A stretch of DNA of 64,000 nucleotides. Origin: a virus. The position numbers and the translations under genes were made by a program. Within the stretch, counting starts at the first letter, position 1; the number at the start of each line of letters is the position of its first letter. Below are positions 2,600 to 29,120 of the stretch, piece after piece. The stretch spans positions 28,944-92,943 of the IMG/VR virus record IMGVR_UViG_3300043172_000799. One strand, 5' to 3'. The notes under the pieces are model-generated. The model did not search any database. It was given only the letters and a program-made list of their open reading frames with translations, and was not told the origin of the DNA.

Positions 2600-2869
2600 A
2601 TGAAAAATACAAAAATAGACAACTTTGATGAAATGACAAAAACAGGAGAGGAAACAACCAGATTGCTCTCTGTAAGGTTAAAAATTCCAGTGTCAAAATT
2701 TGAAATCTATAGAGATAACCAGTTTAAATTTCCTAGATATATTATAAGAATTAATCATAATGATCATGATATTACTCTAGATCGTATGACACTAAATATC
2801 TTGTTATCCGTGTATAGCTTTCAATATGTAGCTTTTGATGAAGAAAATGATATTTATATATATTTTTAG
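2600..2869 (+). CDS. Hypothetical early protein
   Basis: An 89-residue protein of unknown function, mixed alpha/beta in appearance, with a hydrophobic aromatic C-terminus (YSFQYVAFDEENDIYIYF). AAGGAAGT lies within the end of the upstream gene, indicating translational coupling. Confidence 0.65.
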   Translation: MKNTKIDNFDEMTKTGEETTRLLSVRLKIPVSKFEIYRDNQFKFPRYIIRINHNDHDITLDRMTLNILLSVYSFQYVAFDEENDIYIYF

Positions 2870-2898
2870 ATTAACATAGTAAAAAAGAAGTAAATAAA

Positions 2899-3645
2899 AT
2901 GATAGACATTTTTAAAGAACTGAAATCAGAGAAAAAAGAAAATTGCAAAGTTAACGGTTATGACAATATAAAAAATACTTGCAATTATTTATTGGAAGTG
3001 CTGGAAGATAAAAAATATTACAATCATTACAATAAAATGCAATTTTCAATAAATGCAAAATTATGTAAATCTCATCACTTTGCAGACTCTGAAGATTGTA
3101 AAAATGTAATAATTGACATTTTAAAAAATCAATACAATGTCAATAAAGATTATGAAAAAGTTTTTAATCTTCTTAATATATCAGATGAAGAAATTATGGA
3201 TTTACATAATTATTGGATTGAAGACAATCAAGGCTATATAAAAGAAATTCTTTCAGATTCTGTCATCTATGATGAGACTGAAATAAAGGAAATTCTTTCT
3301 ATTATTAAAAATGATTCAATTGGTTTTTATGGTAGAAGTGGTGGGAACTTATGTTTTAATACTGATATAGATTTTAATGAAGAACTGGAAACAATTATAC
3401 ATTGGATTGATGAAGATTACATAAAATATGAGTATGATTACAATAGACTGCAATCAGATGTAAAAGAATGGTTTAATTGTATCATGGGATTAAAATTTGT
3501 ATTAGATGATATTAAAACATTGATTGATGGTTCAAGTTTTCATGATGAATTAAAATTTAGATATGAAATTGAAATAGAAGATAATACAGAAATTCAGGAA
3601 ATTATTATTAATGAGTGCAAGCAATTAAATTTAGATATAATATAA
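2899..3645 (+). CDS. Hypothetical acidic early protein
   Basis: A 248-residue acidic protein, rich in Asp, Asn and Ile. No motif recognised. The segment NDSIGFYGRSGGNLCF (about residues 138-153) looks like a turn-rich core, and similar S-R-S-G text occurs in the following gene (YTSRSGFMSFYS) and near FYGRS patterns of other phage proteins. The two genes may be distant relatives. AAAGAAGT precedes the ATG. Confidence 0.65.
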   Translation: MIDIFKELKSEKKENCKVNGYDNIKNTCNYLLEVLEDKKYYNHYNKMQFSINAKLCKSHHFADSEDCKNVIIDILKNQYNVNKDYEKVFNLLNISDEEIMDLHNYWIEDNQGYIKEILSDSVIYDETEIKEILSIIKNDSIGFYGRSGGNLCFNTDIDFNEELETIIHWIDEDYIKYEYDYNRLQSDVKEWFNCIMGLKFVLDDIKTLIDGSSFHDELKFRYEIEIEDNTEIQEIIINECKQLNLDII

Positions 3646-3658
3646 GGAAATAAATAAA

Positions 3659-4285
3659 ATGAAAGAAAAAATAAAGGGATTTTTACCATGTTTTGATGGA
3701 TTCTATAATTCAATGTTAGAATTTGACTATGATATGTGTATCTACAATATTGAAGAGGATAGGCAAGAAAAAGGAATTATACAAAAATTCGACAGTGATA
3801 AAATAGAAATAGACTATAAAAGTTACTGCAATGATATGTCTATTAATGCAGTACAGACAATTGGCGAACCTCTGTTAGATATGAACTTGATTGTATCTGT
3901 TGAATTTGAGAATTTATATAGCCCTAGAGAATATAATTTTGAAACAGATTCTATAAATTGTATTTATTCCATAACAGAAGAAAACAAGAAAAATATACTG
4001 GAATATATTAAAAATAATATAGATGAATTTGAAACGTATATAAAGGATAGATATACAAGTCGTTCCGGTTTTATGTCATTTTATTCTAATGATTTTAGAC
4101 AATGGATAAAAGAATTTGAAAGCTGGAATATGGAAAAAATTGACCATAAATTCAGCTCAGTACTTGAATTCATACTTCTTAATGAAGAGGAACAATATTA
4201 TTACTCTATGGAAATTTCAGAAAACTTTACAATCAGTAATTCTTGTGATCAGTATATCACTAATTATGATGAGCTGTTAAAATAA
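3659..4285 (+). CDS. Hypothetical acidic early protein
   Basis: A 208-residue acidic protein of unknown function. The middle contains RYTSRSGFMSFYSNDFRQW, followed by a helical, Glu-rich C-terminus. I have seen similar R-S-G-F-x-S-F-Y text in hypothetical phage proteins but cannot assign a role. AAGGAAAT precedes the ATG by 7 bases; 13 bases separate it from the upstream gene. Confidence 0.65.
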   Translation: MKEKIKGFLPCFDGFYNSMLEFDYDMCIYNIEEDRQEKGIIQKFDSDKIEIDYKSYCNDMSINAVQTIGEPLLDMNLIVSVEFENLYSPREYNFETDSINCIYSITEENKKNILEYIKNNIDEFETYIKDRYTSRSGFMSFYSNDFRQWIKEFESWNMEKIDHKFSSVLEFILLNEEEQYYYSMEISENFTISNSCDQYITNYDELLK

Positions 4286-4303
4286 AAAAAGGAAGTAAGA
4301 AAA

Positions 4304-4486
4304 ATGAGTATAAAGGAATTACCAGGATACATTGAAAGTTATATTAAAAAATTACCTCCTTGTAAAAAATGCGGATGTTTATATCACTATGGATATAGAG
4401 ATTTATTAAGTATTGAATCTACGGTGAAAATAAAATGTGATGCTTGCCAGCATGAGAGACTAGTTTTATTTTCAGATATTTTATAG
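4304..4486 (+). CDS. Small zinc-ribbon protein
   Basis: A 60-residue protein with two Cys pairs, CKKC (about residues 20-23) and CDAC (about 46-49), a classic four-cysteine zinc ribbon. Such small ribbons often bind nucleic acid or modify host RNA polymerase, but nothing here tells which. AAAGGAAGT precedes the ATG. It ends this early operon and is followed by a hairpin region. Confidence 0.7.
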   Translation: MSIKELPGYIESYIKKLPPCKKCGCLYHYGYRDLLSIESTVKIKCDACQHERLVLFSDIL

Positions 4487-4550
4487 TTTAATTTCTTTGT
4501 ATTGACTCGTCACTGCATCGGAATTTTAAAGTGGTATGAATATATAAGAA

Positions 4551-4629
4551 ACTTGAAAAGATTGAAATTCGGTTTTTTCAAGTTATTTTCAAAAATAATT
4601 ATTATTTATATTGTTATTTTTGAAAATAA
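4551..4629 (+). terminator. Two consecutive inverted repeats
   Basis: The first pair is ACTTGAAAA (4551-4559) and TTTTCAAGT (4575-4583), followed by TATTTT: a terminator-like hairpin. The second is a perfect 16-bp pair, TTATTTTCAAAAATAA (4583-4598) and TTATTTTTGAAAATAA (4614-4629). Together they fill the 170-bp gap after the zinc-ribbon gene. Confidence 0.65.
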
Positions 4630-4656
4630 GGTTTATCTTCTTATTAAGAGGTAATT

Positions 4657-4863
4657 ATGTTAAATAGTAAAATTATTGAATTGAAAAAATCAGTTTTGAA
4701 AACAATCTTAAGTTCTGAGAATTGCAATCATGAGCAAGCATTGAAAGCATTTTCAGAATATTCTAAATTAGATGTATGCGAAGCTGAAAAAGAATTTCAT
4801 CTTTACTATGTTAGACATAGTTCAAATTTAGGAATAGTTCCCAACTTAAGAAAGGTTGGTTAA
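4657..4863 (+). CDS. Hypothetical early protein
   Basis: A 68-residue mostly helical protein of unknown function. AAGAGGT lies 6 bases before the ATG. It opens a second early gene cluster (4657-6078) of closely spaced or overlapping genes. Confidence 0.6.
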   Translation: MLNSKIIELKKSVLKTILSSENCNHEQALKAFSEYSKLDVCEAEKEFHLYYVRHSSNLGIVPNLRKVG

Positions 4864-4864
4864 A

Positions 4865-5098
4865 ATGTCAATAACTGAAAAAGAAATTCACTGTCAGAAA
4901 TTGGCACTGGAAGAGATTTCATGTCATAACGATAATAATGTTTTAATTATTGTACAATATAATAATTATTGTATTCCGGTTACTTTCAGAAATATAATAA
5001 ATGAATTTGAATTAAAATTTAATCGTGTTCCTACATATATTGAATTAATTAAAAAATGTGAGAAGATATTAAATATTGATTTATATAAAATAGCATAA
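4865..5098 (+). CDS. Hypothetical early protein
   Basis: A 77-residue protein of unknown function. I start it at the ATG at 4865 rather than at a TTG three codons upstream, because the AAAGG(T)TGGTTAAA leader directly before this ATG is repeated before the next gene. The C-terminal half (FELKFNRVPTYIELIKKCEK) is probably helical. Confidence 0.6.
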   Translation: MSITEKEIHCQKLALEEISCHNDNNVLIIVQYNNYCIPVTFRNIINEFELKFNRVPTYIELIKKCEKILNIDLYKIA

Positions 5099-5118
5099 TA
5101 CAAAAAAGTTGGTTAAAA

Positions 5119-21926: not shown

Positions 21927-23015
21927 ATGTCAACAGCAACAAATCAATTGCAGGATCTATCTGTAAATAATCAGCATTTAATTGAGCAACATAAAAATGA
22001 AATTATTTCTACAATGCTGATCTTTTTTAAGCATATGGAAAAACTAATAAATAAGGAAATAAAAGCATCATTTGATGATACAAAAACAATAGTGGATAAG
22101 AATGCATTAAAAAGGAGATTAAATGTAATTCAGGAAAGGGAATTAAATAAGATACAAAAACAGATAACAAAGGATGTACATAAATTTTTAGGATCACAGG
22201 CAAAGAACTATGAAAAACAATTGAAAGGTGTCTTGAAAGACGTTTCTAAATATATAAAAGTGCATAGTATTAGTGAGAAAGCTTTGAAACATAATTATGA
22301 TAAAGAGCCTATTGTTATGGAAAAAGGATCATACAATACACTTGCTTCTTTATGGGCCACTTTCTTTCTGAGTGTAAGAACCAATTTAAATCAGAACACA
22401 GAATCTGCATATAAGTTAAAGAAAACTACCAGAGAGTATACTAGTGATTTAAATAGAGGCTATAAAATTAGTGAAAATAGTTTGAATGGGATTATAGCCG
22501 TATATATACAACAGGCAGTTGGAAGTGCAGCCAAATCTGTTAATGGTGTAAATGAAGAGTTCATTCGTGGGTATTCATGGAGTTCCGTACTTGACAGTAA
22601 AACGAGTGATTTTTGTATTTCTCACGCATATAGATTTTGGATTTATAATCACCCTGAATTGAGTACATTAGAAGCAGAGATTTACAGCCCTGCCCATTTC
22701 CGTTGCCGTGCCAGTAACCCCCCAATAATAAAATCATATAGAGAATTAGGAATATCTGCCAGTGAATTAACAACATCTCAGAAATCACTATTGGCAAATA
22801 GTAAAACAGAGACATTGACCTACAATCAGTTTTTTGAAAGACAGACGGAGAGTGTGAAGAAGGAAATATTAGGAGTTGTGAGATATAATGCATACCAACA
22901 AGGAAACTTAGATGTTTCTGCGTTCTATACAAGAGATGGAAGAAAACTCACATTAAAACAACTAGAAAAAAAGAATATTCAGATAGCAGATGAATACTTG
23001 AGATATGTCAATTAA
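21927..23015 (+). CDS. Minor head protein, SPP1 gp7 / Mu gpF-like
   Basis: A 362-residue protein. The C-terminal third has the SPP1 gp7 / Mu F head morphogenesis pattern: SSVLDSKTSDFC with its Cys, then YSPAHFRCRASN, the metal-site-like HxRCR motif. The N-terminal half is a long helix region. Members join the prohead near the portal, and the gene order portal then minor head fits. The last residues run on another helical pair. Confidence 0.8.
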   Translation: MSTATNQLQDLSVNNQHLIEQHKNEIISTMLIFFKHMEKLINKEIKASFDDTKTIVDKNALKRRLNVIQERELNKIQKQITKDVHKFLGSQAKNYEKQLKGVLKDVSKYIKVHSISEKALKHNYDKEPIVMEKGSYNTLASLWATFFLSVRTNLNQNTESAYKLKKTTREYTSDLNRGYKISENSLNGIIAVYIQQAVGSAAKSVNGVNEEFIRGYSWSSVLDSKTSDFCISHAYRFWIYNHPELSTLEAEIYSPAHFRCRASNPPIIKSYRELGISASELTTSQKSLLANSKTETLTYNQFFERQTESVKKEILGVVRYNAYQQGNLDVSAFYTRDGRKLTLKQLEKKNIQIADEYLRYVN

Positions 23016-23224: not shown

Positions 23225-23289
23225 CAGTAACAGAATGGTTATTAGAGAAACAGCCTAATCCAATTGGAAGTGACAATTTTTATGGGTGA
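23221..23289 (+). pseudogene. Ghost N-terminus of the phosphoesterase gene
   Basis: A 22-codon open frame, MTVTEWLLEKQPNPIGSDNF and on to Tyr-Gly-stop, which matches the start of the phosphoesterase at 24417 (MTRIQWLLGNIPNPTESSDF): M-T-x-x-x-W-L-L, P-N-P, S-D-x-F-Y. It is translationally coupled to the upstream gene by an ATGA overlap, so it looks like the original gene start. The homing endonuclease gene now interrupts it. Confidence 0.75.
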
Positions 23290-24445
23290 GGCAGTGGTAG
23301 AGCAATTTGATACATTTACTGTAGATATTCCCCTTCTATCAAAAACACATAAATCCTATTATAAGGCATATATGTTTTTAAAGACGGGACTATTATATTG
23401 CACTAAATGTGGAGAATTGCTAGAGTTTGATAAATTTGGCAGTAAGAAAGAATGTATCCCATTCTACAAAAGAAGTCAATGTCTTGACTGTGAGAATAAG
23501 ACCAGAGGTTTCTCATACAGAAATGAAAGTCTGACCTCTAAAAGATATGCTAATGATGGGATACCAAATACATTATTTAATGATTTTGAAGTTTTGCATC
23601 AAGATGATGCAAAACACCTACCAAAAAGCCAAAAGACATACTACAGATTGTACATGTTTTTAAAAGAAAAACTTTTATACTGTGGTAAATGCAATAAACT
23701 GTTAGATATAGATAAGTTTCGATTAGATGACAAAAAAGTATTATTTGGTAGGAGAACTTATTGTCATGCTTGTGAGCTTAAATACTCTAGAAGTACGAAT
23801 GTTAAGGAAAAGCGTTCAAATAACCATAAGCTAAAGTATGTAGAAAATAGAGATCACATTTTAGAATATCAGGAAGAATATCGACAGAATAATAAAGAGA
23901 AGATATCTAAAAGGAATAAGAAATATAGAAAAGAAAATAAAGATAAAATAAAAGAATGGCAATCGGAATACTATAATGAGAATAGAGATGAGAGAATTAA
24001 ATATGTTATTGGGTATACAAAGAAAAGAAGAAAGAAAGACCCATATTTCCGAATGAAATTGATTTATAGGAAACAATTGTGGAGAGTGTTTGCTGGAGAG
24101 GAAAGAGAAATAAGATCAAAGGAACTGTTAGGGTGCAGTTACGAGGAGTTTTTAGAGTACTTGGAACTCCCAGAAGGGAAAGAGTATACAGACTTTGAAT
24201 TAGACCACGTAATACCCATAGAAGCCTTTAACATTTGTGAGGATAGTGAGAAAATTTTATGTTCTCATTACACAAACTTTCAATTATTATCTAAACGGGA
24301 TAACAGAAGTAAGAGTGATTTCTGGGAAGGAATAAGGTGGAGAGATGTAAGTCCAGAAGATAAGAAAAGTGCAAGATTAGAAATATTAAACAAAATAAAA
24401 AGGGGAGCTATTAACAATGACAAGAATCCAGTGGTTGCTAGGTAA
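23282..24445 (+). CDS. HNH homing endonuclease with duplicated zinc modules
   Basis: About 387 residues from the ATG 11 bases after GGAAG. The N-terminal 180 residues hold two copies of a module: SYYKAYMFLKTGLLYCTKCG...FDKF...CLDC and TYYRLYMFLKEKLLYCGKCN...IDKF...CHAC. A charged repeat of K-x-N-K-E-K-x-x-x-x-x-x-Y type follows, then the HNH core: ELDHVIPIEAFN...HYTNFQLLSKRDN. It would cut intron- or gene-less alleles to spread itself. Its end overlaps the phosphoesterase start by 29 bases. Confidence 0.85.
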   Translation: MGEAVVEQFDTFTVDIPLLSKTHKSYYKAYMFLKTGLLYCTKCGELLEFDKFGSKKECIPFYKRSQCLDCENKTRGFSYRNESLTSKRYANDGIPNTLFNDFEVLHQDDAKHLPKSQKTYYRLYMFLKEKLLYCGKCNKLLDIDKFRLDDKKVLFGRRTYCHACELKYSRSTNVKEKRSNNHKLKYVENRDHILEYQEEYRQNNKEKISKRNKKYRKENKDKIKEWQSEYYNENRDERIKYVIGYTKKRRKKDPYFRMKLIYRKQLWRVFAGEEREIRSKELLGCSYEEFLEYLELPEGKEYTDFELDHVIPIEAFNICEDSEKILCSHYTNFQLLSKRDNRSKSDFWEGIRWRDVSPEDKKSARLEILNKIKRGAINNDKNPVVAR

Positions 24446-25628
24446 TATACCAAATCCAACAGAATCTTCAGATTTCTACTATTTGATGGATGATTTCTCA
24501 GCAGAGTTTGGGGAAACTCCCATTGATAATTTCAAGAGATACGCCAGAAAAGCTATGGGAGAATACAGAGATCAAACATCTCCAGAAAACACACTAACAA
24601 CAGAAATTACAGATAATGGGTTAGAAGTAAAATTAAAATCGTTTGGGATAACTACAGAAGAAGGAATCAGGAAACAAGCAGGATTATCCGTAGAAGAATG
24701 GGATTGTTCTGCTTTCAGGGTAAAATCCTCCCAGAATGAACAGAACCCTTGGCATTCAGTTAATGCTGAATTCCGAAAGAAGAAGGAGCTTGCATTTCCC
24801 CTAATTCAGCAAGCAGAAGTTAAGATAGAGCAATATGAAAATGTTGCTAGAAAACCATCAGACACAACAGTAAATGTATCTGATCTCCATGCACCGATGC
24901 ATGATGAGAAAGCTATGGATATCTCTATACAGGTTATGAAAGACCTATATCCTTCAACCGTAGTTATAAACGGAGATGCATTAGATCTTACTGATTTCTC
25001 TGATAAGTTTTTAGCGTCTTTGGAATGCCGAAATCAAACACAGAAGGGAATCAATGCCGTTGCAAAGTATATTGGGCAGATAAGACAGGTTTGCCCAGAA
25101 GCTAAAATAGTATTTATGGAAGGGAATCATTCAAATAGAATGAGAAAAGTAATCCTTAAAAATGTAGCAGGAGCTATAGGATTAAAGAGAGCTGATAATC
25201 TTGATGGATATGAAGCCCTTTCCGTACCAAATCTTCTTTGTTTAGATACGCTAGATGTAGAATGGCAACCATATCCTGAAGGTGAGTATTGGGTTAATGA
25301 GAATTTAAGATTTCATCATGGAGAGAAATTAAACTTAAACAATATAGCTAATGAAAGTTTTGTAAACCAAGTAATGGGGCATAATCACAAGCATCTCATG
25401 GTAAGTAGGACAAAGCATATATACAATGGCAGGAAGCAGATATGGGTAGCTTCCTTCGGATGTATGTGTATGATGGATGGGAGTGTTCCTTCAGTAAGTA
25501 GCCATTCTGATTGGCAGAGTGGCTTTGGGGTTGTGTATCATACAGGAACTACTTGCCAGCCTATCCCTATTTACATCGAAGATGGGAAAGCTTTATTTGA
25601 AGGCAAGGTTTATGAGGCTAGAATTTAA
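24417..25628 (+). CDS. Calcineurin-like metallophosphoesterase
   Basis: A 403-residue protein with the metallophosphoesterase signature set: SDLHAP (DxH), INGDALDL (GD), FMEGNHSNR (GNH), FHHGE and VMGHNHKH (GHxH). The N-terminal 140 residues are a helical extension. Phage genes of this type lie beside head genes; the substrate is unknown. Its first 22 codons are a second version of the fragment at 23221, separated from it by the endonuclease gene. Confidence 0.85.
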   Translation: MTRIQWLLGNIPNPTESSDFYYLMDDFSAEFGETPIDNFKRYARKAMGEYRDQTSPENTLTTEITDNGLEVKLKSFGITTEEGIRKQAGLSVEEWDCSAFRVKSSQNEQNPWHSVNAEFRKKKELAFPLIQQAEVKIEQYENVARKPSDTTVNVSDLHAPMHDEKAMDISIQVMKDLYPSTVVINGDALDLTDFSDKFLASLECRNQTQKGINAVAKYIGQIRQVCPEAKIVFMEGNHSNRMRKVILKNVAGAIGLKRADNLDGYEALSVPNLLCLDTLDVEWQPYPEGEYWVNENLRFHHGEKLNLNNIANESFVNQVMGHNHKHLMVSRTKHIYNGRKQIWVASFGCMCMMDGSVPSVSSHSDWQSGFGVVYHTGTTCQPIPIYIEDGKALFEGKVYEARI

Positions 25629-25629
25629 A

Positions 25630-25674
25630 TATACCCTATAAGGTATAAAAGGAGAATATACCCCATAGGGTATA
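25630..25674. repeat. Two tandem palindromes
   Basis: TATACCCTATAAGGTATA (25630-25647, 6-bp arms) and TATACCCCATAGGGTATA (25657-25674, 7-bp arms) are two similar palindromes 9 bp apart, at the left edge of the CRISPR insertion. They could be protein-binding sites or scars of insertion. Confidence 0.6.
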
Positions 25675-25693
25675 GGATGGAACATCCACAAGG

Positions 25694-25745
25694 TCAGTAC
25701 AAGTTGTTTCTTTTCGACGAGAGTTTCTTGTACTGATTTAATTTT
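25694..25745 (+). terminator. Hairpin at the left edge of the CRISPR module
   Basis: TCAGTACAAG and CTTGTACTGA form a perfect 10-bp stem around 23 bases, followed by TTTAATTTTTA. It would stop transcripts coming from the phosphoesterase gene. Confidence 0.7.
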
Positions 25746-25755
25746 TACTTGACAG

Positions 25756-25808
25756 ACCCTCTTTCCTGTGGTATGCTTTATAGGCATATTACAGGAGGAG
25801 GGTTTTTT
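25756..25808 (+). terminator. Second terminator before the cas12f promoter
   Basis: ACCCTCTTTCCTGT (25756-25769) pairs with ACAGGAGGAGGGT (25791-25803) with one bulge; a TATGC/GCATA pair extends the inside and TTTTTT follows. Together with the hairpin before it, this insulates the CRISPR module from upstream phage transcription. Confidence 0.75.
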
Positions 25809-25833
25809 GTTAGTAGATAAAATATTTTTATGC

Positions 25834-25862
25834 TTGACAAATACCTATTACTGTGTTAGTAT
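25834..25862 (+). promoter_or_regulatory. Promoter of the cas12f-like gene
   Basis: TTGACA, 17 bp, TAGTAT; the effector's GTG start is 34 bases downstream with AAAGGAGA between. Confidence 0.75.
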
Positions 25863-25895
25863 TTAAATAGATCAAAAATATAAAGGAGATATTTA

Positions 25896-27239
25896 GTGGG
25901 CAATGTGTTGACAAAGCTGATACAGATAATACCAGATGATGATATTAATGGTACGTATAAAATTATACGTGATTGGATGTACCATAGTACATCACTTGCA
26001 AATCTTATTATGACTGAGACATATGTAATAACACAAAGAGCAAGAGCCTTGTGCACTGCTCAGCCTGAATTAGATTATTTTCAGGCTGTTGCAAAAATGA
26101 AGGTTGAACGTGTTGGAAGTTATATTGGTAAAGTCACAGAAAAGACAATAGGTAGTAGTTTTGGGTATTGTTTATCTAAATCCCCTAATTATGCAGAAAA
26201 TATTCCAGGGGCTATTCGTACCAAAATAGATAAGGTGGTTGGACAACACTTTCAAGCAGATGTAAAAACCAATGGATTGCTGAAGGGAAATTGTTCTCTT
26301 AGATCTTACAGCCGTAAAAACATGGCTGTATATCTACCCAGTAGTAAGGGTGCTTCTAAGTTTACTTGTGAGGATGGTAACTACTATTTTAGTACCATTA
26401 ACAAATTGCGATTTAAAGTATTTTTAGGTAGGGACAATAGCAAAAACAAATTAGCTATTGACAGGATTATTTCTGGTGAGTATAAAATGCCTGATGTATC
26501 CATAAAGATTAAGGATAATAAAATATTTGTATTGGCACCTATAACAATTGAAGTAACAGATTTGGGATTAGACCCAGAGCTATCAGTTGGTGTAGACTTA
26601 GGAATTACTATTCCTGCGGTGTGTGCATTGTCCACTGGATTAGATAGAGCATTTATAGGTAATGGCACTGAGATAGTCAACTACCGTTTTTCTATGCGAA
26701 GAAAGAGAAAAAACTTACAGAAGAGTTTAACATTGTCTACAGGAGGAAGAGGAAGAGGAAAAAAACTAAAAGCATTAGAAAGGATAAGTAGTACTGAAAG
26801 TAATTGGATAAAGACTAAAAATCATTTAATTTCTAAAAAAATTATTGATTTTGCATTGACAAACGGAGCAGGAACTGTTAAGCTTGAATTATTAGAAGGG
26901 TTCACCAAAGAACATTCTTCCAACATTGTGCTAAAAGATTGGACGTATTATCAGTTAGGAGAGATGATACAGTACAAAGCAAAAATAGCTGGAATTGTAG
27001 TAGTACGGATAGATCCTTATCACACTTCACAGACATGCAACGTGTGTGGACATTCTACTAAAGAGAACAGACCTAAAGGTACAAAAGGTCAAGCATACTT
27101 TAAATGTGTGTCTTGTGGGCATAAAACCAACGCAGACCTTAATGCTGCACGGAATATTGCAAAATCGACAAAGATAGTAACTAAGAAGAAGGAATGCCAG
27201 TACCACAAATTGAAAAGTAACTTAATAGAAGTATCTTAA
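25896..27239 (+). CDS. cas12f: Miniature Cas12f-like CRISPR effector nuclease
   Basis: A 447-residue RNA-guided DNA nuclease candidate. The RuvC residues are D234 (VGVDLGI), E331 (VKLELLEG) and D414 (TNADLNAARNIA). A zinc ribbon, C381/C384 and C404/C407, sits between the last two. Parts read like the small Cas12f1 of Acidibacillus as I remember it: DRIISGEY, GGRGRGKK, NWTYY-like DWTYYQLGEM and IDPYHTSQTC. TnpB shares this fold; the repeat array, anti-repeat and lack of transposon ends favour Cas12f. GTG start after AAAGGAGA. Confidence 0.88.
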   Translation: MGNVLTKLIQIIPDDDINGTYKIIRDWMYHSTSLANLIMTETYVITQRARALCTAQPELDYFQAVAKMKVERVGSYIGKVTEKTIGSSFGYCLSKSPNYAENIPGAIRTKIDKVVGQHFQADVKTNGLLKGNCSLRSYSRKNMAVYLPSSKGASKFTCEDGNYYFSTINKLRFKVFLGRDNSKNKLAIDRIISGEYKMPDVSIKIKDNKIFVLAPITIEVTDLGLDPELSVGVDLGITIPAVCALSTGLDRAFIGNGTEIVNYRFSMRRKRKNLQKSLTLSTGGRGRGKKLKALERISSTESNWIKTKNHLISKKIIDFALTNGAGTVKLELLEGFTKEHSSNIVLKDWTYYQLGEMIQYKAKIAGIVVVRIDPYHTSQTCNVCGHSTKENRPKGTKGQAYFKCVSCGHKTNADLNAARNIAKSTKIVTKKKECQYHKLKSNLIEVS

Positions 27240-27360
27240 TGATTCTTCTGGGGCGGTTTCACGTCCTTATGCTGAGGGAGATTTCTCCGCTCTGGCAACC
27301 ACATATTATTTTTGCGAAGTGGTTACAAACAACACCTTATTTGCAGTAAGATGAGACACA
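27240..27360 (+). ncRNA. Predicted tracrRNA with two-part anti-repeat
   Basis: Between the effector stop and the array. Predicted stems: GGGCG/CGTCC (27251-27266), GGAG/CTCC (27277-27288) and AACCAC/GTGGTT (27297-27324). Then ACACCT (27332-27337) and GTAAGATGAGAC (27346-27357) are complementary to AGGTGT and GTCACATCTTAC of the repeat, the latter at 11 of 12 positions. A stem set followed by two anti-repeat parts is the layout of Cas12f tracrRNAs. Exact ends are unknown. Confidence 0.8.
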
Positions 27361-27442
27361 GAGATGTTTTGGTATATTCTTGTATAGGTTCGCACTTTTA
27401 GTGTTGTAAGTACTTGTTTTGGTGAGAGTTATTTTATAGGCA

Positions 27443-27786
27443 GTCACATCTTACATAGGTGTGTGGATTGAAACAGTATTAGATGGAATAGACAAATCCT
27501 TGACTAAGTCACATCTTACATAGGTGTGTGGATTGAAACGACGTATGATGCGAGAGAAGGCAATCAAGGCAGGGTCACATCTTACATAGGTGTGTGGATT
27601 GAAACAATTCTGATTCTGAGTATTTTATTATCTTTTTGGGTCACATCTTACATAGGTGTGTGGATTGAAACCATGCCCTTTTTTGAGACAGACAACTATT
27701 TTAAAGTCACATCTTACATAGGTGTGTGGATTGAAACTGGTATATTGTTGCAATTGTCTCAATCACGTCACATCTTACATAGGTGT
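27443..27786 (+). CRISPR. CRISPR array, five full repeats and a truncated sixth
   Basis: Five identical 32-bp repeats (GTCACATC...GATTGAAAC) start at 27443, 27508, 27574, 27640 and 27706. Spacers are 33, 34, 34, 34 and 29 bp. A sixth repeat (27767-27786) keeps only its first 20 bases. The region 27361-27442 is an A/T-rich leader. The repeat end GATTGAAAC is typical of CRISPR repeats. No cas1, cas2 or cas4 is in the window. Confidence 0.95.
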
Positions 27787-27885
27787 ACTGAAAATCTTAG
27801 TAAAGGCGATGACTGGGAAGAAGATTTTGAAGAAGAATTAAAGTTTATGGGCAAACACGCCGATGATATAAGTATAAGAAATTAA
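27787..27885 (+). pseudogene. C-terminal remnant of an HNH homing endonuclease
   Basis: An open frame without a start directly after the truncated repeat: ENLSKGDDWEEDFEEELKFM and on to a stop at 27885. 'NLSKGD-W' is the usual ending of HNH endonucleases after HYTNLQPLW; the intact endonuclease at 27948 ends with DNLEKLDKWEEDLDNE. The junction with the repeat at 27786/27787 is where array and gene were joined. Confidence 0.65.
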
Positions 27886-27888
27886 AAA

Positions 27889-27940
27889 CTGTCTTTTCTC
27901 TCGCGCGAGACTGGCAGAAATGTCAGGAGAGAGGAGACAG
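27889..27940 (+). promoter_or_regulatory. Hairpin hiding the ribosome site of the next endonuclease
   Basis: CTGTCT and CTCTC pair with GAGAG and AGACAG; inside, CTGGCA and TGTCAG close a GAAA tetraloop (27911-27926). The GAGAGAGGAG ribosome site of the 27948 gene is in the right arm. Confidence 0.65.
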
Positions 27941-27947
27941 GATTTAT

Positions 27948-28799
27948 ATGACAGAAGAAAAATATCTCATTACAGAAAAAGGCAGAGAATGCCCTAAATG
28001 TGGTGAGTTTAAAGAATGGGAAGAATTTGGCAAGAGAAAAGGTAGACCATCTGGATATGCCAGCAGTTGTAAAGAATGTGGCAGGAAGTATGCTAGGAAA
28101 TATTCAAAAAGTAATAAACAAAAAATAAATCAATATGCAAAAGAGTACCGAAGTAACAACAAAGAGCAAATAGAGGAGTATATGGTTGGCTACCGTACTA
28201 CAAATGCTGAGAATACTAAAGAGTATAATAAAAGATATAAGGAAGAAAATAAAGAGTCTCTTAAAGAACATTACTTAGAGAATTTTGAAGCTACAAGACA
28301 TATTAGAGAGCAATATTATTGTAATAATAAGGAAGTGATGCAGTCTAATAATAAGAGATACCGTCACAACAACAAAGAAGGAATAAAAGCTAAAGCCAAA
28401 AGATATGATCTGGAAAATAAAGCTAAACGAAATTATAGAAATAAGGAGAGACGTAAATCTGATCTTAATTTTAAAATAGTTACCAGCTTACGCTCCAGAA
28501 TGGGTAATGCTTTGAAAGCTCAAAATTCTGAGAAATTTTTTCATGCATTAGATATATTAGGATGTTCTCCAGCAGAGTGTGTTAGTCATCTGGAAAAACA
28601 ATTCACAGAGGGTATGTCTTGGAGTAATCATGCAAAAGACGGATGGCATATAGATCATATTAGACCTTGTGCTTCTTTTGACCTAACTATTCCTGAACAG
28701 CAAAAGTTATGCTTCCACTACACAAATTTACAACCTTTATGGTGGTATGATAATTTAGAAAAACTGGATAAATGGGAAGAAGACTTAGATAATGAATAA
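27948..28799 (+). CDS. HNH homing endonuclease
   Basis: A 283-residue protein: an N-terminal zinc ribbon (CPKCGEFKEWEEFGKR...CKEC), a repeated charged helix region with N-N-K-E units, then the HNH core, HIDHIRPCASFDL, Q-Q-K-L-C-FHYTNLQPLWWYDN. It is downstream of the CRISPR array and the HNH remnant. It probably entered as a separate homing event; no intron is evident. Translation is likely damped by the hairpin at 27889-27940. Confidence 0.85.
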   Translation: MTEEKYLITEKGRECPKCGEFKEWEEFGKRKGRPSGYASSCKECGRKYARKYSKSNKQKINQYAKEYRSNNKEQIEEYMVGYRTTNAENTKEYNKRYKEENKESLKEHYLENFEATRHIREQYYCNNKEVMQSNNKRYRHNNKEGIKAKAKRYDLENKAKRNYRNKERRKSDLNFKIVTSLRSRMGNALKAQNSEKFFHALDILGCSPAECVSHLEKQFTEGMSWSNHAKDGWHIDHIRPCASFDLTIPEQQKLCFHYTNLQPLWWYDNLEKLDKWEEDLDNE

Positions 28800-28911: not shown

Positions 28912-29120
28912 TGTTTATAACTCCAATCCAACCAAATTCCCTCCAAATCACTCACTTGTGTGCTCCACAGTAAATCATAATGTACACTTAGGTAAGATCA
29001 AATAAGAAACTAATGCCTCAGCAGAAGCCTAGGGACTTTGGATCTGCCCATCAGTAGATGTGGCTATATTAATTTTTAATTCTCATATTATTTATGAGGG
29101 CAATTAACAGGAGTTAAACG
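28912..29120 (+). promoter_or_regulatory. Leader of the scaffold-capsid operon
   Basis: About 210 gene-free bases. It contains CACTTGTGTGCTCC (28953-28966), which matches the left arm of the terS inverted repeat in 13 of 14 positions, and a GCAGA/TCTGC hairpin (about 29022-29047). AACAGGAG precedes the scaffold ATG. No clear -35/-10 promoter is visible. Confidence 0.45.

Follow-up and report, generated by a model that had tools for sequence, protein, structure and literature searches.

V-U3/Cas12f1 nucleases cleave double-stranded DNA beside 5′ T- or C-rich protospacer adjacent motifs (PAMs), are described without adaptation genes, and in some cases protect E. coli from plasmids (PMC7229846). 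Huge phages have been reported to encode new V-U variants and V-F subtypes, mostly without acquisition genes and with a median of six repeats (PMC7162821), and among 450 viral elements with arrays, 114 have type V homologues (PMC12607003). The discussion of the latter paper places many homologues near TnpB, V-U1, V-U5 and V-F1/V-U3; in its results, none grouped with f1. Viral mini-arrays that use the clustered regularly interspaced short palindromic repeats (CRISPR) system of a host have been reviewed together with the enrichment of V-F in plasmids (PMC11656645). For V-U and V-F loci without Cas1 and Cas2, the question arises where spacers come from. Here we describe a cas12f locus with a CRISPR array in a 64-kb stretch of DNA (the window; positions 28,944 to 92,943 of virus record IMGVR_UViG_3300043172_000799, which has 168,384 bases and is possibly a fragment). 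With a probability of roughly 0.7, we read it as an interference module of type V-F (Cas12f1/V-U3-like) that a phage carries, guided by a trans-activating CRISPR RNA (tracrRNA) and without adaptation genes of its own, whose array class would have been taken over from type I-C adaptation or fitted to it. Its parts lie in the window as follows.

25896 to 27239, + strand: cas12f gene, 447 residues, RuvC D234/E331/D414, zinc ribbon C381/C384/C404/C407 (reading frame, profiles, alignment, fold)
27247 to 27298, + strand: tracrRNA core, two hairpins (covariance model)
27299 to 27307, + strand: candidate anti-repeat segment, which could join the 3′ half of the repeat through 9 base pairs including 3 G-U (weak)
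27346 to 27357, + strand: anti-repeat GTAAGATGAGAC, complementary to repeat bases 1-12 at 11 of 12 positions (shuffle p 0.013)
27443 to 27786, + strand: CRISPR array of five exact 32-bp repeats (I-C class), a truncated sixth and five spacers (exact matches)

With phage V-F and V-U systems already published (PMC7162821), the rarity ascribed to this locus in a first-pass annotation was overstated; what appears to be new here is a repeat of the I-C class with a fitting anti-repeat. Like the published phage systems, the locus is phage-borne and compact in its array, and no acquisition genes were found; this repeat and anti-repeat set it apart from them, as far as the literature searched describes them. 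It shares with the type V-F Cas12f1/V-U3 systems (CnCas12f1, AsCas12f1, RhCas12f1, OsCas12f1, Al3Cas12f) the effector fold, catalytic residues and size, a tracrRNA core behind the gene and an array, again with no adaptation genes found. It is unlike them in being phage-carried and in having an I-C-class repeat, where most other loci have the usual Cas12f-linked repeats. The repeat sequence is a usual, not a defining, feature of V-F systems. In the literature that we searched, which left out most subscription papers, no report was seen of Cas12f loci with repeats or leaders of the I-C type.

The array consists of five exact copies of the repeat GTCACATCTTACATAGGTGTGTGGATTGAAAC, beginning at 27443, 27508, 27574, 27640 and 27706, and a truncated copy of 20 nt at 27767-27786, as first annotated; the spacers measure 33, 34, 34, 34 and 29 nt. 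The class of the repeat had been overlooked. We compared it with a type I-C reference set (cas8c was present in 43 of 291 sampled genomes; 20 stretches were taken and arrays found in 16) and additionally with a Phocaeicola plasmid bearing an I-C operon of Cas8c (405.7 bits, cut-off 218.65), Cas5, Cas7, Cas4 and Cas1. The window repeat is identical to the cas8c-linked repeat of this plasmid at 28 of 32 positions. Against the I-C set it scores 24.0, compared with 17-30.5 among 17 I-C repeats themselves and at most 10 for 500 shuffled versions. By this measure the window repeat is of type I-C class, which distinguishes it from most repeats linked to Cas12f. It shares with I-C arrays a 32-33-nt repeat, the same stem layout, the TGGATTGAAAY end and spacers near 34 nt. 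Unlike type I-C systems (Cas8c/Cas5/Cas7/Cas4-Cas1-Cas2), the locus has no I-C operon visible beside its array, and a Cas1 profile search of the whole record gave no match (no search of the record for Cas8c was made). It further differs from I-C arrays in lacking the full leader element and in having an array apparently served by a Cas12f tracrRNA core.

Repeats of this class are found at few other Cas12f loci. Our comparison set holds 96 distinct Cas12f-like proteins with at least 100 bits to the window protein (loci are given as L numbers), 54 of them array-bearing; for the remaining 42 no array was detected, which contig ends may explain in some cases. An I-C-class score (≥17) was reached at 4 of the 54 other array-bearing loci, namely Ectobacillus antri L018, Priestia endophytica L014 and the viral contigs L225 and L236, while the remaining 50 score ≤14. 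The degenerate array of L014 was overlooked by the array finder and added by hand. The I-C-like label requires 3 changes on a 74-protein tree, and still 3 when the starred branches alone are trusted. This tree was a quick one, with support from the Shimodaira-Hasegawa-like approximate likelihood ratio test (SH-aLRT) only; 30 near-duplicate loci were dropped by hand, and rows of <400 residues or <120 bits were omitted, L236 excepted. On this tree, I-C-like repeats at Cas12f loci have more than one origin and fall on three separate branches. A sister relationship between the window protein and the Bacillaceae Cas12f proteins whose repeats are I-C-like (L014, L018) was rejected by the approximately unbiased test (p 7.7e-5), the group having been defined by repeats beforehand and the test run after the tree was known. 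Among Cas12f loci, the repeat of L236 is the nearest to that of the window; its gene (2777-4271) is split over two frames, by decay or sequencing error. At L192 (IMGVR_UViG_3300018427_000033, 2884-5101), an array lies on each side of one Cas12f gene with a leader element before each, one repeat being I-C-like and the other intermediate. The upstream array scores 18.0 and, with only two full copies, is outside the count of 4.

The effector is encoded by an open reading frame opening with GTG and preceded by AAAGGAGA. As seen in the first reading, it is a 447-residue RuvC protein with a zinc ribbon: D234, E331 and D414 are invariant across a 24-sequence alignment, and the four cysteines are present in two pairs (C381/C384 and C404/C407). 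Profile searches gave nearly full-length matches to the PADLOC models Cas12u3 (4.5e-100, residues 9-432) and Cas12f (9.5e-99), and the closest solved structures by sequence are Cas12f chains. Among NCBIfam models, the general guided-TnpB model was passed (169.7 bits, cut-off 100), the IS200 and IS607 TnpB models stayed far under their cut-offs (57.4/425 and 45.5/350 bits), and that of Cas12f2, another subgroup, was missed (122/450 bits). An AlphaFold2 model of the protein (predicted local distance difference test 80, predicted template modelling score 0.65) matched CnCas12f1 with a Foldseek E of 1.4e-29 and AsCas12f1 with Z 28.6 and a root-mean-square deviation of 3.8 over 384 residues. In this structure comparison Cas12f structures reach Z 27-29, with TnpB next at Z 22.5. 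In trees the window protein groups among Cas12f rows (SH-aLRT 96 in a 37-row set), on a long branch and with L025 as the sole TnpB-like outgroup, which makes this a limited test of a placement outside TnpB. Judged by profile and predicted fold, the window protein is Cas12f1/V-U3-like, in line with the original assignment, and its frame and catalytic residues indicate an apparently intact Cas12f-type nuclease. It had also been ranked among the smallest Cas12 effectors with an array, which did not hold: published Cas12f1 proteins include ones of 415 and 433 residues (PMC10090079) and 422 residues (PMC7229846), and several loci in our set have Cas12f-like proteins of 421-439 residues with arrays. 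At 447 residues, the protein is not unusually small for Cas12f.

Many Cas12f genes are followed on their 3′ side by a shared anatomy, a short hairpin and then TGAG...CTCA. A covariance model of it (R1) was built from 14 rows, excluding the window, that were chosen from 28 loci for clear, mostly short inserts. The alignment forms two helices in which 96.1% of cells are paired, and its covariation score is 0.554 against a shuffled mean of 0.179 and ≤0.178 for slid versions; the signal was weak by one other covariation measure, the pairs with changes on both sides, for which 41 of 500 shuffles were as high. R1 detects the tracrRNA core of the window at 29.8 bits (E 1.2e-5; E-values are rough, from a short calibration), and the structured region noticed in the first-pass annotation thus exceeds chance. 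The core begins directly 3′ of the cas12f stop codon and is the best R1 match in the 64 kb by 10 bits; the second match (22618-22658, 19.8 bits) was taken as chance. Among 21 other loci, R1 matched 16 at E≤1, 15 of these at E≤0.005, and gave no match at L006, L041, L078, L165 and L217; the matches at L187, L047, L181 and L189 fall upstream of the gene. An Rfam scan of 25000-28600 returned a single weak, irrelevant match. Cores were also seen directly behind phage Cas12f-like genes for which no array was detected (L045:6275-6340 and L046:6360-6419). Behind the Cas12f gene and core of L160 (IMGVR_UViG_3300027996_002167), the array-like structure at 4876-4958 is unusually short, with three 19-nt repeats at spacings of just 30 and 34 nt.

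We searched for anti-repeats in the 70 nt behind the tracrRNA core, a length fixed after earlier non-discriminating tests. In the window, 0 of 19 other I-C-type repeats match the anti-repeat as well as its own repeat does. Perfect matches of 8-9 bases to the own repeat were found at L236 (p 0.012), L014 (p 0.031; one other repeat matches equally well) and L018 (p 0.043), and no signal at L225 (p 0.35). The five loci combined give p 0.0003, and p 0.002 with the window left out. Gapped pairing over the whole stretch ranked the own repeat 1 at L236 (2/300 shuffles as good), 2 at L018 (90/300), 9 at L014 and 12 at L225. In an earlier segment test of the window 6/2000 shuffles were as good, but the segment had been picked by eye. 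The window anti-repeat likely pairs with its own repeat, to judge from complementarity. Of the anti-repeat segments considered here, the one at 27346-27357 is moderately supported, although not favoured when the whole stretch is considered, and the one at 27299-27307 is weak.

A further element links some of these loci to type I-C. A 43-nt inverted repeat, GTGCGAA...ACATAAAA...TTCGCAC, is present in 8 of the 20 I-C stretches and ends 127-139 nt 5′ of the first repeat in the six of these that have a detected array. A sequence model (R2) built from these eight stretches, found by pattern, matches 10 of the 20. Other CRISPR types were represented by L073-L075, short stretches with Cas1 in which no match was better than E 6.8, so the specificity of R2 for I-C is not proven. 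Among the 96 Cas12f/TnpB-like loci, 12 have R2 matches at E≤0.1 (14 places, every one of them on the + strand) and 9 at the stricter E≤4e-4 (11 places). The element lies 114-149 nt before the array at L236 and at both L192 arrays, weak copies occur at L018 (E 0.009) and L014 (E 0.026) in searches of 47 kb, and at L208 it stands behind the array, not before it. At 8 of the 12 element-bearing loci no array of at least three copies was found within 1.5 kb; these are L200, L203, L210, L216, L224, L234, L235 and L052, where the leader-like element lies near Cas12f/TnpB-like genes. The window holds one related feature.

27313 to 27395 (arms 27313-27321 and 27386-27395), + strand: two arms like the ends of the I-C leader element, at the wrong spacing (below significance in the model)

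GTTCGCAC is present once in the 64 kb. The leader of the window looks broken; if the array was once served by I-C adaptation, it would be frozen today.

In the interference module that we propose, the array transcript would pair with the tracrRNA and then be trimmed, probably by host RNase III. Cas12f with the dual guide would cut DNA beside a 5′ PAM, most likely that of competing phages or plasmids during infection. Adaptation would be supplied in trans by a host I-C Cas4-Cas1-Cas2, from which the array class would have been taken or to which it would have been fitted, and this would explain how a module without adaptation genes gets its spacers. The I-C Cas4-Cas1-Cas2 cuts prespacers at 5′-GAA, TTC on the other strand (PMC6519985). 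Because spacers written in this way would carry a PAM usable by Cas12f, adaptation in trans by I-C is a reasonable account of the shared repeats and leaders. A broader version, which we consider possible but doubtful, is that phage Cas12f modules ride on I-C immunity at large: host Cas4-Cas1-Cas2 would write GAA/TTC-adjacent spacers into arrays with I-C repeats and leaders, and the Cas12f tracrRNA would repeatedly have co-evolved to read I-C-type guides.

Several results weigh against the proposed module and its link to type I-C adaptation. In gapped pairing over the full 203-nt stretch of the window, the own repeat ranks 2 of 20 and 18/300 shuffles are as good; by duplex energy, it is surpassed by four I-C repeats with lower values. 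Intermediate repeats (score 14: L192 downstream, L217, L227) leave room for gradual convergence, and because they exist, convergence and capture of an I-C repeat cannot be told apart. Neither cas8c nor Cas1 was found in the Ectobacillus antri and Priestia endophytica genomes, so the I-C-like arrays of L018 and L014 appear to stand without I-C genes, as far as the assemblies show. The I-C loci with repeats nearest to that of the window (L002 and L239) have no R2 match, and no full leader element lies anywhere in the 64 kb. Finally, no spacer target was found in searches of phages, viral contigs, the window, the collected loci and the record itself. A search of phages with the array (27475-27800) at E≤10 returned no convincing target, its matches being I-C-like repeats or weak and partial; for spacers 1, 2 and 4, pieces of 22-24 nt from the 5′ end each hit 0 viral contigs. 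The five spacers gave short matches alone in the masked window and collected loci, among the matches listed (spacers 1-3), and in their own record the self match alone.

The same repeat class would also fit a viral mini-array that supplies a host type I-C Cascade with guides against rival phages, the Cas12f gene being an independent passenger. There are precedents for viral mini-arrays that carry the repeats of a host (PMC11656645, PMC7162821), and this array is likewise short, virus-borne and of host-type repeat. Unlike the mini-arrays described in PMC11656645, however, it comes with its own effector and tracrRNA core and five spacers, and no host with the repeat was found (0/291 and 0/398 sampled genomes). 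The core sits between gene and array, the anti-repeat fits the window repeat, and the order of gene, tracr and array with I-C-like repeats recurs at L014, L018, L225 and L236. We therefore regard the Cascade mini-array as unlikely. Somewhat less likely still is a decaying or static remnant, a once working module whose broken leader and truncated last repeat would mean that adaptation, and perhaps activity, has been lost. The leader element reduced to split arms, the split gene of the related L236 and the degenerate L014 array agree with decay, but the five exact repeats, the intact frame and catalytic residues, and the retained tracr core and promoter-like site do not.

Two further readings seem to us very improbable. 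I-C-class repeats in a phage could yield decoy RNAs for host type I-C proteins, and RNA anti-CRISPRs are known (PMC10651486), but the known ones are solitary repeat units, whereas here five repeats with distinct spacers accompany Cas12f and a tracrRNA core. Least probable of all is an IS200/IS605 or IS607 TnpB element adjoining repeats by chance. The passed general TnpB model and TnpB as the next structural match speak for it; the low IS200 and IS607 TnpB scores, the better match of Cas12f structures and the presence of a true array and tracr core speak against it, as does a search of the whole record for Y1 transposase (PF01797), which gave no match. No sign of such an element was seen in these searches.

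The phage origin stated at the outset is borne out by genes for terminase, portal, head and minor tail proteins in the record. The cas12f locus lies among the late genes, upstream of the capsid gene, with a gene for a metallophosphoesterase on one side and an endonuclease VII-like gene on the other. In L106, a relative of this phage with a capsid protein 76% identical, no array and no Cas12f-like reading frame of at least 90 residues was found at the equivalent site, and the CRISPR unit therefore looks like cargo at a variable site of the phage genome. Endonuclease VII-like genes lie on each side of the locus (23264-24445 and 27948-28799), both within the variable portal-capsid stretch, and similar genes are apparently present in L106 (by eye). 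Matches to the capsid protein come from diverse phages and do not exceed 35% identity in the best rows. Neither the exact repeat nor, in a single-protein search, the window protein was found in viral contigs, near relatives possibly being outside the searched set. In each of three Streptococcus satellite phages (MK448333.1, MK448340.1, MK448659.1, near 1349-1386), a single short match to the repeat, 37 bases long with E 0.3, may be a lone I-C-like repeat. Upstream of cas12f lie the following elements.

25630 to 25674, no strand assigned: inverted-repeat pair TATACCCTATAAGGTATA / TATACCCCATAGGGTATA (fold z -2.6)
25691 to 25745, + strand: terminator-like hairpin 1, T-rich tail (fold -19.3 kcal/mol, z -4.2)
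25756 to 25808, + strand: terminator-like hairpin 2, T tail (fold z -7.6)
25834 to 25862, + strand: promoter-like site TTGACA-17-TAGTAT before cas12f (by consensus match only)

The inverted-repeat pair forms two short, near-identical, operator-like palindromes upstream of the hairpins. The two terminators followed by a promoter that had been proposed here are partly upheld: both hairpins fold well, hairpin 1 by fold only, its loop exceeding the length allowed in the terminator scan, but promoter-like sites in the region are not enriched (8 against a shuffle mean of 9.5). A second such site, TTGACA-17-TATGCT (25749-25777), overlaps hairpin 2. We treat the two TTGACA-type sites 5′ of cas12f as putative promoters, a consensus match not being evidence of function.

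I-C-class repeats with a fitting anti-repeat on three Cas12f branches, together with the leader element in 12 of 96 Cas12f/TnpB-like loci, lead to a testable proposal for how loci without Cas1 and Cas2 obtain spacers, namely I-C adaptation in trans. One implication is that some Cas12f enzymes may accept CRISPR RNAs of the I-C type, and another that phages may have a way of using host memory in phage-phage competition. If the broader version is true, the phage would have a nuclease of its own with which to exploit the memory machinery of its host.

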